Assembly (NCBI GenBank): GCA_007133055.1
Contig: SLNM01000102.1
Coordinates: 1 to 12,439, forward strand
Source of the DNA: Lentisphaeria bacterium
Lineage (GTDB): Bacteria > Verrucomicrobiota > Lentisphaeria > Oligosphaerales > PUNB01
Reading direction: 5' to 3'
DNA length: 12,439 bases
The position numbers were made by a program, and so were the translations under genes. The notes beneath the pieces are model-generated. The model was not told the origin of the DNA, ran no database searches, and saw only the letters and a program-made list of their open reading frames with translations. This document shows, piece after piece, positions 1,673 through 10,372 of this stretch; the stretch's first letter is position 1; every line of letters starts with the position of its first letter.

Positions 1673-3748
1673 ATGGGACACTCGCTGGCCAGCTTGGCTG
1701 ATGTTTTCCCGGACCAACAATTGGAATGCGCGGTGGCTGGCTGTCGCAGTCTATGCCTTGGGGCGTCCCGGCAGAATGAATCTGACCATGCCCCGGTCGA
1801 TTCCGCACTGCCTTCACCGGTCTGCGACGACTGCCGCCGTCAGTTCGCCGAGCTGGCCGAGCTCACGATGCCCTGTGCCAGGCAAGGCTGCGAGGGGAGC
1901 TGGCAGTGGATGCGTTTGCAGCAGCTGATCGACCGGCGGCAGGCCGAGGCGAGCGGGCGGGAGCCTGCGGCCAACCCCAGTGGGCTTTGCCCGGAATGTC
2001 AACGGCAGGCCGAGGAGCTGGGCGACCGGGATGTGGAATGCATGGTCAAGGGTTGCTCGGAAACCTGGCGATGGACGGGCGTGGAACGCCTCTGCCAGGA
2101 GAGCCAGGCGCCGCCGCCGCGGATGTGCGCCCGCTGCACCAAACGGCTGGCCCGCCTGCAAGACCGCGATATTCGCTGCTGCCTGGACGGCTGCGAACAA
2201 ACTTGGTGCTGGACGGCTCGCGAGCAGTTCGATGAGATGATACAGATGGAGCGCAGCACAACGCCGCCGCCGCCGCGCAGAATGTGCGGGAGTTGCCAGG
2301 CCAAGTTTCGGCTTATGCACGACCGGGACATCCCCTGCCGGGTGACCGGTTGTCAAAGAACCTGGCAACTGACTGCCGAAGCTCAGCTGCGACACCAGCT
2401 CATCCATGGCGAAAACAGCGATCCTGCCGAAGGCAGCCGGCGAATGTGCAATGAATGCCACGCCTTCCTGAAGCAGGCCAGGCCACGGCAAATCCCCTGC
2501 CGTATTCGCGCCTGCAAGAACACTTGGACCTACACACCGAGCTGGCAGTTGAACGATTTCGCCCGCGGTCGCACAAGGCCGCCTTCGAGGCTGTGTGAAA
2601 GTTGTCAGAAACGCTTGCAGGAATTGCAGCTCTCGCCCCAGGCCTGCATGGTGCCGGGCTGTCAAAACACCTGGGACTGGACCCCGGAGGAGCAACTGCG
2701 GGAAATGGTACTTGCCGCCGCCACCAACAAACCTTTGCGGCCGCCGAAGAAACGGTGCGTTGAATGCGATGAGTTTCTCCGGCGGCAGCCAGGCAAAAAG
2801 TTGTACTGCAACGACTGCGGCAGCGAAATATCGTGGTCCTCCTACGAACAGCTTCTCCACTCCCGCGGCACCTTCGCCAAGCCAACCAGATGCTCCGACT
2901 GCGCCGCCAGGATAGTGGCCGAGAAAAAGCCGGTGCCGGAGGATTTCATTGTTCACTCGGACAAACCAAAGTTCCAGGTGCCCTCCCGCGGTCCCTGGCA
3001 AAAACATCAGACCATTGCCCATTCCCCTCCCGGCATGGACCGACAAACCATCGAGCGTTTGCAGGCAGCCGACTTTCGGGTGATCGCCTTCGGCGACGAC
3101 ATGACCGTCGCCGCCCCGGGCGGCGAGCAATGCTGGCCGCTTCTGCTGCAACAGGAGCTTAACACTCGCCTGCGGGATGCGGCCGCCACTGTGGCGGTGG
3201 CCAATGCCGGCATCGAAGCCTGCGACAGCGGTCTGGCCAGACTGCGAATCGCCCGCGACGTGCAACCATTCCAGCCACACCTGGTAATTGTCTCGTTTGT
3301 CTTTGCCGACGCCCGCGTCGAGGTTGAGCCAGGACAGAACGACACCCGGGGCAATCATCGCGACGACCATCAGGATTTGTCGCCGGAACAGTTGTTGCTG
3401 CGGCAGCTTCGCACCTTGCATTCCAACCTGCTCTACTGGCTGCCCAATCCAATTTTTCCGCAGCAGCAGGTGAAGACGGAGATGGACACCAAGACTCGCC
3501 AGTGGGTCAATTCCTTGGACAACCGCTATCGTCAGCAGCGGGCGCGGGTCGGTCGCCTGTGCCAGGCCAAAGGGGTGGCTTTGCTCGATGTCGGTTCAAA
3601 ATTCGAGGTTAACGGACTGAGCAGTGCCAGCAAGTGGATGAAGGATCCATACCATCCCAACCAGGCGGGGCATCGGAATATTGCCAAGTGGATGGCCGGG
3701 GCAATCCTGCAGCAGCAGTTGCTGCCGGTCGAGACAGGAGAAGGATAA
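1673..3748 (+). CDS. Eight-repeat zinc-ribbon protein with degenerate SGNH-hydrolase-like domain
   Basis: A 691-residue protein whose exact family I do not recognise. Residues 19-410 hold eight repeats with a spacing of 46-55 residues. Each has a Cys pair (C-x4-C in repeats 1-7, C-x2-C in repeat 8), usually followed by a W-x-W/T motif and an EQL-like helix, then a C-x2-C pair. The pairs are C19/C24+C51/C54, C68/C73+C106/C109, C123/C128+C152/C155, C169/C174+C205/C208, C222/C227+C259/C262, C276/C281+C308/C311, C325/C330+C362/C365 and C379/C382+C407/C410, so eight four-Cys metal sites are plausible. Residues 469-683 look like an SGNH/GDSL domain: block I IAFGDDMT (474-478), block II NAG (511-513), block III VSFVFADA, block V DPYHPNQAGH (D658, H661). 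The nucleophile Ser is Asp476 and the block III G-x-N-D is V-F-A-D, so esterase activity is doubtful. No signal peptide or membrane segment is visible. The start is ATG with AGGAGA at 1658-1663 (9-nt spacer). The function is unknown; protein or nucleic-acid binding is a guess. Confidence 0.85.
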   Translation: MGHSLASLADVFPDQQLECAVAGCRSLCLGASRQNESDHAPVDSALPSPVCDDCRRQFAELAELTMPCARQGCEGSWQWMRLQQLIDRRQAEASGREPAANPSGLCPECQRQAEELGDRDVECMVKGCSETWRWTGVERLCQESQAPPPRMCARCTKRLARLQDRDIRCCLDGCEQTWCWTAREQFDEMIQMERSTTPPPPRRMCGSCQAKFRLMHDRDIPCRVTGCQRTWQLTAEAQLRHQLIHGENSDPAEGSRRMCNECHAFLKQARPRQIPCRIRACKNTWTYTPSWQLNDFARGRTRPPSRLCESCQKRLQELQLSPQACMVPGCQNTWDWTPEEQLREMVLAAATNKPLRPPKKRCVECDEFLRRQPGKKLYCNDCGSEISWSSYEQLLHSRGTFAKPTRCSDCAARIVAEKKPVPEDFIVHSDKPKFQVPSRGPWQKHQTIAHSPPGMDRQTIERLQAADFRVIAFGDDMTVAAPGGEQCWPLLLQQELNTRLRDAAATVAVANAGIEACDSGLARLRIARDVQPFQPHLVIVSFVFADARVEVEPGQNDTRGNHRDDHQDLSPEQLLLRQLRTLHSNLLYWLPNPIFPQQQVKTEMDTKTRQWVNSLDNRYRQQRARVGRLCQAKGVALLDVGSKFEVNGLSSASKWMKDPYHPNQAGHRNIAKWMAGAILQQQLLPVETGEG

Positions 3749-3749
3749 A

Positions 3750-4610
3750 ATGGAAGGCATCATGGTCAGGCATCCCGCCAATCCCGTACTGTCGGCGGAT
3801 CGGATACCCTATCCGGCCACCCTGATCTTCAACGCCGGTGTCGCCAAGTATCAGGGGAGATACGTCATGGTTTTCAGAAACGACTATGGCGGTCAACCCG
3901 GCACCACCGGTTTCAAGGGCACCAATATCGGAGTTGCATATTCCTCCGACGGCATTGTCTGGGAACCCCGGTCCAAACCCTGGATTGAATGGAAGACCGA
4001 GGAGATCAGGAGAGCCTACGACCCCCGCATAACGGTCATTGACAACCGCTGCTACCTTTGCTTCGCAGTCGACACCCGGCATGGGATTCGCGGCGGGATT
4101 GCGGTCTCCGACGATCTGGATCGATGGGAGGTTCTCAGTCTGTCCGCCCCCGACAATCGGAATATGGTTCTTTTTCCAGAGAAAGTGAACGGGAAGTTTC
4201 TCCGGCTGGAGCGTCCCTTCCCGGTCTACGGGCGGGGTGGTCCCGAGAATTTCGACCTATGGTATTCCGATTCTCCCGACGGCGTCTACTGGGGCAACAC
4301 CAACCTGGTGCTCGGTTCGGAGCTGGTGCCATGGGCCAACGCCAAGGTCGGACCGGGCGCGCCGCCAGTTAAAACCCGCGCCGGCTGGCAGGCCGCTATC
4401 GTCGCCCGCTCTCGTCGACCGAACGGACAGGGTTGGAGTTCCGCCTTTAGGCGGCAGTTGCAGCGAGCTTTAGCGAGCGGGCTTTTATTCGCCCGTGCTC
4501 CGGGGGCTGAAGCCTCCAGACAACTTCCGCGTAAACGCGGAACTCTGACGGGGGACGACGTGTCCGTGGGCGCTACGCACCGGACACCGCATGTCAGAAA
4601 CAGCGGTTGA
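3750..4610 (+). pseudogene. GH130-family glycoside phosphorylase/hydrolase, 3'-truncated by repeats
   Basis: The first 214 codons (to 4392) encode a five-bladed-propeller GH130-type protein, the family of beta-mannoside phosphorylases and related hydrolases. Recognisable pieces are NAGVAKYQGRYVMVFR (28-43), GVAYSSDGIVWEP, YDPRIT (D91, at the position of the family's conserved catalytic Asp), RNMVLFPEKVNGKFLRLERP, FDLWYSDSPDGVYW and VGPGAPPVKTRAGWQ. Family members continue from the last motif with a W-x-x-x-Y/F-H-G strand and about 90-130 more residues. Here the reading frame instead enters the repeat cluster at 4393 and adds 72 residues of repeat-derived sequence before TGA at 4608-4610. The missing blade does not reappear downstream. 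The start is ATG at 3750, one base after the preceding TAA, with AGGAG 9 nt upstream, so translation is probably coupled to the zinc-ribbon gene. The product, if made, is unlikely to be an active enzyme. GH130 membership is confident; subfamily and substrate cannot be read. Confidence 0.85.
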
Positions 4611-4629
4611 CGATAACGGGCGACGATAG
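4396..4629. repeat. MITE-like element with 26-bp terminal inverted repeats
   Basis: The ends 4396-4421 and 4604-4629 are inverse copies matching at 23 of 26 positions. The outer terminus reads CTATCGTCGCCCG on the left and CGGGCGACGATAG on the right. The interior is dense with hairpins: CCGCC-TTTA-GGCGG (4441-4454), TTCCGCGT-AA-ACGCGGAA (4525-4542) and GTGTCCG...CGGACAC (4560-4587). There is no transposase gene and no coding signal of its own. The left end falls directly after the last GH130-like codon, so this element or its accretion is the likely cause of the gene's truncation. I see no clear target-site duplication flanking it. Confidence 0.7.
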
Positions 4630-4639
4630 GATATTGAAA

Positions 4640-4745
4640 CTGGAAGTTGTGGGATTGAAGTGCCCCTCCAGGGCACAACAAGGATTTTATGCCAACCCCA
4701 GGCGCTGCCTGGGGCTACGATGAAGCCGCCCTTCCAGGGCTAAGA
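4640..4745. repeat. Tandem hairpin repeat module (three stem-loops)
   Basis: Three short stem-loops stand in a row: GTGCCC-N5-GGGCAC (4660-4676), CCCCAGGC-GCT-GCCTGGGG (4696-4714) and GCCC-TTCCA-GGGC (4728-4740). The first and third share the pattern GAAG...CCTTCCAGGGC or a close variant. The second has an 8-bp perfect stem. The second-plus-third pair resembles the two-hairpin module at 6379-6428. From memory this style of dispersed hairpin repeat is common between genes in planctomycete and verrucomicrobial genomes. No open reading frame of any credibility runs through it. Confidence 0.6.
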
Positions 4746-10295: not shown

Positions 10296-10372
10296 GCGCC
10301 CGTAGCTCAATTGGATAGAGCATCTGACTTCGGATCAGAAGGCTGCAGGTTCGAGCCCTGCCGGGCGTACCA
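10296..10372 (+). tRNA. tRNA-Arg (anticodon TCG)
   Basis: A complete 77-nt cloverleaf. The acceptor stem is GCGCCCG (10296-10302) with CGGGCGT (10362-10368), having a G-U first pair, then discriminator A and an encoded CCA (10370-10372). The D arm is GCTC...GAGC. The anticodon stem is TCTGA/TCAGA with loop CTTCGGA, giving anticodon TCG, which reads CGA/CGG arginine codons. The T arm is GCAGG-TTCGAGC-CCTGC. No integrase or other sign of an attachment site lies nearby. No T-rich terminator follows within 100 bases. Confidence 0.97.

Follow-up and report, generated by a model that had tools for sequence, protein, structure and literature searches.

An eight-unit Cys4 array fused to a catalytically altered SGNH-fold domain in a lineage of Lentisphaeria

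Several known protein families approach parts of the protein described here. The probable treble clef domain zf_Tbcl (PF13451) has its motifs in the same order as the repeat units of this protein (i.e., C..C, an aromatic pair, E-Q, and P-x-R-C-x-x-C), but the first Cys pair of units 1 to 7 is C-x4-C where zf_Tbcl has C-x2-C, and the protein appears to stack all eight of its units in one rod. Regarding the C-terminal part, the nearest enzymes are the GDSL/SGNH esterases (Lipase_GDSL_2, PF13472; TesA, 1ivn; 1yzf); unlike these, the protein lacks the Ser and the oxyanion Asn, its family mostly lacks the Asp-His dyad, and a Cys4 array is fused to the domain. The non-GDSL lipase-like family (NonGDSL, PF25182) matched 17 of the 25 members of our alignment A1 at an E value of <=0.01 (best, 5.2e-8), whereas the protein itself scored 14.7 bits, under the cutoff of 80. 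The same units also occur in hypothetical proteins of Myxococcales/Polyangia and "Deltaproteobacteria" (e.g., P0028, P0053, and P0098), which are referred to here as array-only proteins. Within the part of the open-licence PMC literature returned by our searches, we found no paper on the combination of such an array with a pseudo-SGNH domain, on PF13451 or the probable treble clef domain, or on zinc SGNH proteins of Lentisphaerae; among the matches listed for Victivallales signature zinc proteins, none named Victivallales, and the match for bacterial tandem treble-clef arrays was limited to PMC7159879.

The window (i.e., the whole stretch of DNA analyzed; 12,439 nucleotides) is from a draft genome of 2.03 Mb (384 contigs; 68% complete). 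The gene, at positions 1673 to 3748 of the plus strand, which carries all of the gene features given below, encodes 691 amino acids; a putative Shine-Dalgarno sequence (AGGAG; 1658 to 1662), read from the sequence, lies 10 bases before the ATG. The open reading frame was aligned with 24 relatives (A1) and with a larger set of fusions sharing <90% mutual identity, which comprised 85 nonredundant sequences, including our own; L049_p1_2838, which is array only and ends with its contig, was left out. A first-pass annotation had described an SGNH-like fold preceded by eight units, each containing two Cys pairs, at residues 19 to 410. This observation was confirmed, and the SGNH-fold domain was placed at residues 440 to 680. 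Its broader proposal of a metal-binding array fused to a pseudo-esterase is supported by the 85-sequence alignment, the models, and the fold search. The predictions yield an SGNH fold as well as zinc-finger-like units, and the nucleophile position has no conserved Ser, the opposite of what the annotation had named as counterevidence. Although the assemblies are mostly draft metagenomes, we give practically no weight to the idea that assembly or annotation errors produced the fusion or the altered SGNH domain, which is refuted by the recurrence of the fusion in 85 nonredundant sequences and in a single-contig 5.7-Mb genome (G013).

The array consists of unit 1 (residues 19 to 54; 1727 to 1834; C-x4-C and C-x2-C), unit 2 (68 to 109; 1874 to 1999), unit 3 (123 to 155; 2039 to 2137), unit 4 (169 to 208; 2177 to 2296), unit 5 (222 to 262; 2336 to 2458), unit 6 (276 to 311; 2498 to 2605), unit 7 (325 to 365; 2645 to 2767), and the end unit, unit 8 (379 to 410; 2807 to 2902). 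The first Cys pair is C-x4-C in all of units 1 to 7, whereas both pairs of unit 8 (C379/C382 and C407/C410) are C-x2-C. Across the 85 fusions, every ungapped cell at the 32 ligand positions was Cys (2688 of 2688; gaps, 32 of 2720), and the mean pairwise identity of the array was 45%. A profile built from 518 units (units 1 to 7) has the approximate consensus D-[KR]-E-x-P-C-[RK]-x-[RK]-G-C-x-[NG]-T-W-x-W-x-R-x-x-Q-L ... P-P-x-R-[ML]-C-x-x-C. In profile comparisons with unit 8, the pooled units 1 to 7 reached a probability of 94.6%, compared with 66% for unit 1 alone and 48% for unit 6 alone.

The units had initially been called zinc-ribbon-like. Cys4 zinc-finger-like units are indeed predicted, but they are better described as treble-clef units resembling zf_Tbcl. 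In our protein, zf_Tbcl recognizes unit 8 only (residues 375 to 411; E value, 1.4e-4; 22.2 bits in the protein scan and 27.9 bits in the genome search; cutoff, 24), and 9 of the 25 A1 members had matches at an E value of 0.01 (best, 3.6e-7). When aligned by hhalign with a zf_Tbcl protein from G033, a related genome, unit 8 gave a probability of 97.5% and the pooled units 1 to 7 gave 84%. Two C-x2-C pairs are present in unit 8 and absent from units 1 to 7, which, judged by sequence, are a variant of zf_Tbcl and not a member. The metal of the array is probably zinc. Two array-only proteins matched the FYVE zinc finger (PF01363; a eukaryotic lipid-binding finger) at 2.5e-6 and 6.9e-7, slightly past the cutoff. 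These matches were set aside; the matched stretch of about 60 residues is longer than one unit.

The model of residues 215 to 415, which includes units 5 to 8, had a mean pLDDT of 96.6 and a pTM of 0.78, which predicts that its four units are packed into a single rigid body. Structure searches returned nothing convincing among solved structures as a counterpart of such a rod. The pTM of the full-length model was 0.42, so this model gives no defined arrangement of the rod and the SGNH-fold head.

The structure model and fold search assigned a three-layer SGNH fold to residues 440 to 680 (2990 to 3712), and the catalytic set proved to be altered family-wide: the complete Ser-Asp-His set was found in 0 of the 85 fusions. 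The block I nucleophile position, Asp476 in our protein (codon at 3098 to 3100), holds Asp in 42 sequences, Glu in 36, Ser and Gln in 2 each, and Cys, Gly, and Thr in 1 each, which agrees with the earlier statement that the Ser has been lost; neither of the two Ser-bearing homologs combines it with the Asp-His set. The loss of the block III oxyanion Asn of GxND, previously read from V-F-A-D, was likewise confirmed, with Ala545 here and Asn in 2 of the 85. The block II Gly, in contrast to the earlier claim that it is kept, is replaced by Ala516, which aligns with the Gly of TesA; Gly occupies this place in 40 of the 85. Asp658 and His661 of block V (DPYH, residues 658 to 661; 3644 to 3655) are both present, as had been stated, yet only 8 of the 85 fusions retain the pair. 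Asp was found at position 658 in 38, and His661 is lost in 77; His stands one place later in 47 sequences and in neither place in 34. As a control, we applied the same profile to ten GDSL relatives, drawn from eight genomes of the order. These had the nucleophile Ser in 9 of 9 visible cases, the Asn in 10 of 10, the block II Gly in 8 of 10, and, in block V, His in 9 of 10 with Asp in 6 and Glu in 3. With the Ser, the block II Gly, and the Asn all missing, the sequence indicates a protein that has the SGNH fold but does not qualify as an SGNH hydrolase enzyme. The hydrolase label (i.e., that of Pfam and of P0014 and P0156, both named "SGNH/GDSL hydrolase family protein") is probably wrong.

The altered domain is nonetheless under constraint, given that >85% of it is covered in 85 of 85 fusions at a mean pairwise identity of 36% and that R528, D529, and G666 are each invariant (85 of 85). 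Also conserved are D546 (82 of 85; Glu in 3), N511 (83 of 85), and N663 (83 of 85). Since N511 and D546 (10 of 10 each), D529 (8 of 10), and N663 (6 of 10) are common in the GDSL relatives, these may be fold residues. Arg528 occurs in only 4 of the 10 relatives, and its fixation in the fusions is therefore new. At position 659, Trp is found in 77 of the 85 fusions and in 0 of the 10 relatives, with Pro in our own protein. A family-specific patch formed by W655, M656, and W659 was considered and rejected: Trp655 and Met656 occur in 3 of the 10 relatives and also in TesA, and thus do not mark a new surface. By this comparison of sequences, the new constraints that stand are Trp659 and the fixation of Arg528 only.

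The same residues bear on whether the domain is still an enzyme, using Asp or Glu at the nucleophile position or carrying out a different reaction. Haloalkane dehalogenases and epoxide hydrolases use an acidic nucleophile in the alpha/beta-hydrolase fold. The acidic residue in 78 of the 85 fusions, the nearly fixed R528, D529, D546, N511, and N663, the novelty of Arg528, and the Asp658 and His661 of our own protein are all compatible with retained catalysis. However, the exchange of Asp and Glu (42 versus 36), together with S, Q, C, G, and T, is unusual for a nucleophile, His661 and the oxyanion Asn are gone in 77 and 83 of the 85, respectively, and N511, D546, D529, and N663 may serve the fold. 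We consider a persisting enzyme very unlikely.

With moderate confidence, we favor the reading that the protein is a noncatalytic scaffold or reader in the cytoplasm, consisting of a rod and a GDSL-derived head that binds but does not hydrolyze. In residues 1 to 415, treble-clef-type units that probably bind zinc would stack into a rigid rod, to whose C terminus a GDSL-type esterase domain would have been joined in the lineage of the window. The fold of the added domain would have persisted, whereas the nucleophile and the oxyanion Asn have disappeared, as has the Asp-His dyad in most members; acidity at position 476, Arg528, and, within the loop of the old dyad, a Trp have become conserved. 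The role of the domain would have shifted from hydrolysis to binding; an acyl or sugar ligand, as suggested by the first-pass annotation, is one candidate. We infer the absence of catalysis from these losses, and a cytoplasmic location from the lack of a signal peptide apparent by eye. Counted against this reading are the conserved acidic position 476 and the invariant R528 and D529, which leave room for other chemistry, as well as the Pro659 and the retained Asp658 and His661 of our own protein. If correct, it describes an enzyme fold turned presumed binding module, family-wide and order-wide, and tied to a rod of Cys4 units.

A full or contig-cut copy was detected in 45 of the 47 genomes of the window's order, with one strong match per genome (once split over two contigs); the two genomes without a copy, G031 and G038, are 77% and 85% complete. 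Given the single copy and its presence in 45 of the 47 genomes, the protein is probably important for these bacteria. Among further genomes of the class, 1 of 12 had a copy. Of 288 genomes drawn from the phylum, 17 had the array, all within the order, and among the rows listed the first without a match was labeled "same class."

Outside the order, the array was found in 50 of 116 genomes related to a Myxococcales metagenome-assembled genome (MAG). A protein search with one array-only homolog yielded 190 relatives, and the 120 listed included Victivallales, Polyangia, "Deltaproteobacteria," and one "Pacebacteria." Of 157 proteins collected in all, 57 contained the SGNH part. At 43 array-only loci, representing 42 genomes because L037 and L039 share one, the array was found in 43 and the SGNH part of the profile in 0, considering all open reading frames of the retrieved DNA. 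Of 20 array-only reading frames that were read, 8 had exactly eight units by regular expression, and 4 more had 32 Cys; one group had 18 to 26 Cys and K/R-rich inserts. The reading frame L038|506-2392 was discarded as a false frame without a unit.

Because the array stands alone in Myxococcales- and deltaproteobacteria-type genomes, it is taken to be older than the fusion. In a single FastTree run on 67 arrays, the 35 sampled fusions formed one clade (support, 0.915) that also included one array-only protein, P0070. This protein of 424 amino acids ends without an SGNH domain; it possibly represents a secondary loss of that domain or a shortened record. The simplest reading is that an old array gained a GDSL domain once. 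We also compared units in 400 random pairs drawn from 68 of the 85 fusions and from 11 array-only sequences with exactly eight units by regular expression. The comparison suggests, at the sequence level, one-to-one orthology of units between the fusions and the array-only proteins, with a modest preference for the diagonal of 0.13 to 0.53 for units 1 to 7 (chance, 0.125) and of 1.0 for unit 8, the end units being best matches in every tested pair; for units 4 and 6, the mean score was higher off the diagonal.

Neighboring genes were tallied as raw counts at 41 Lentisphaeria loci (one per genome; several cut by contig ends) and at the 43 array-only loci. In Lentisphaeria, a Pal-type lipoprotein gene lies downstream in 24 of the 41, followed by Nudix (22) and LipA (15) genes. 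ArgS is just upstream in 3 of the 41, i.e., in all three sampled genomes of the window's own family (51 to 253 bases by tblastn), and RlmB occurs in 1 of the 41 (L061, where ArgS is 7.7 kb off); the remaining loci had none of the markers. At the array-only loci, trigger factor is divergent in 16 of the 43, mostly with ClpP, and MtaB lies 0 to 203 bases upstream on the same strand in 7; a convergent Nudix gene was found in 14 and UppS-CdsA in 5. In relatives of the Myxococcales MAG (L146 and L148 to L160), the array gene and trigger factor are transcribed divergently, ClpP being present in 13 of 14, and the Nudix gene is convergent in 14 of 14. That a Nudix gene adjoins the array in two phyla may be due to chance, as strand and order differ. 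Genomic context was considered as a direct answer and dismissed: the neighbors vary by lineage (Pal-Nudix-LipA, UppS-CdsA, or a permease) and thus point to no single pathway. The frequency of translation and proteostasis genes beside the array, not uniform and taken from raw counts, is no more than a hint.

A permease gene lies directly upstream of the array in 6 of the 43 array-only loci (L142, L143, L144, L161, L164, and L165), and the one scanned, that of L144, matches the arsenic-efflux family NF037962. Together with the 32 invariant Cys, which could hold about eight zinc ions, and with the adjoining trigger factor, ClpP, and ClpX genes in Myxococcales-type genomes, this would fit a metal store, a buffer, or a thiol-redox sensor (i.e., zinc or arsenic handling or redox-switched chaperoning as in Hsp33). 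Such a role is rather improbable, however, in that conservation extends past the Cys to W, Q-L, and P-P-x-R, the Foldseek match to Hsp33 is weak (E value, 0.53), and the permease marker was found in 0 of the 41 Lentisphaeria loci.

A scaffold that binds proteins without nucleic acid, for instance a factor tied to the cell envelope or the proteolysis machinery, is a special case of the noncatalytic scaffold or reader that we favor, and the two overlap in probability. The downstream Pal-type gene, the tig-clpP-clpX neighborhood in Myxococcales-type genomes, and Trp659 inside the former dyad loop are in keeping with it, but there is no apparent signal peptide and basic positions recur in the units. 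We regard this special case as unlikely, although it deserves some weight.

Those basic positions raise the question of what the rod of the favored scaffold or reader would bind. In units 1 to 7, K or R recurs two residues ahead of CxxC (0.77) and at two positions within CX4C (0.64 and 0.54), and the net charge of the array has a median of +9 (range, -5 to +19). K/R tracts such as KKRRRKRRRKRK were present in 15 of 15 repeat-only proteins of the first search (P0026 to P0040). These features and the neighbors (ArgS, RlmB, MtaB, and trigger factor were counted toward it) suggest binding of RNA or a translation-related particle, which we offer as a tentative guess at somewhat less than even chances. 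Array charges down to -5 and the small basic excess of our own protein (59 K+R versus 52 D+E) were counted against it. The boldest version, to which we assign a very low probability, is an RNA reader built on a zinc rod, in which the dead esterase head would recognize an ester without cleaving it (e.g., the aminoacyl or peptidyl ester of a tRNA or an acylated sugar) and which would act as a core quality-control or storage factor of the order. This would mean a factor built from a translation-associated array common to the order and Myxococcales.

An Ala/Glu-rich spacer separates the units in many of the repeat-only proteins P0026 to P0040 that were read. Between ArgS and the gene, the window contains an interspersed repeat (1521 to 1665) with 46 matches in its own genome, including itself, many of which are 85 to 99% identical over about 120 bases. 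A GH130-type reading frame (3750 to 4610; Glyco_hydro_130; E value, 1.9e-17; profile positions 33 to 231 of 320) begins one base past the stop of the gene; its family match fades about where repeat-like DNA starts (4395 to 4740; 56 own-genome matches, including itself), and it looks truncated. The reading frames between 4979 and 12251 may encode, from their resemblance by eye, a sulfatase, a ComF-type phosphoribosyltransferase, QueC, AlgH/DUF179, a PD-(D/E)XK-type nuclease, TadA, and PyrF, and a tRNA-Arg gene (anticodon tcg) is located at 10296 to 10372.
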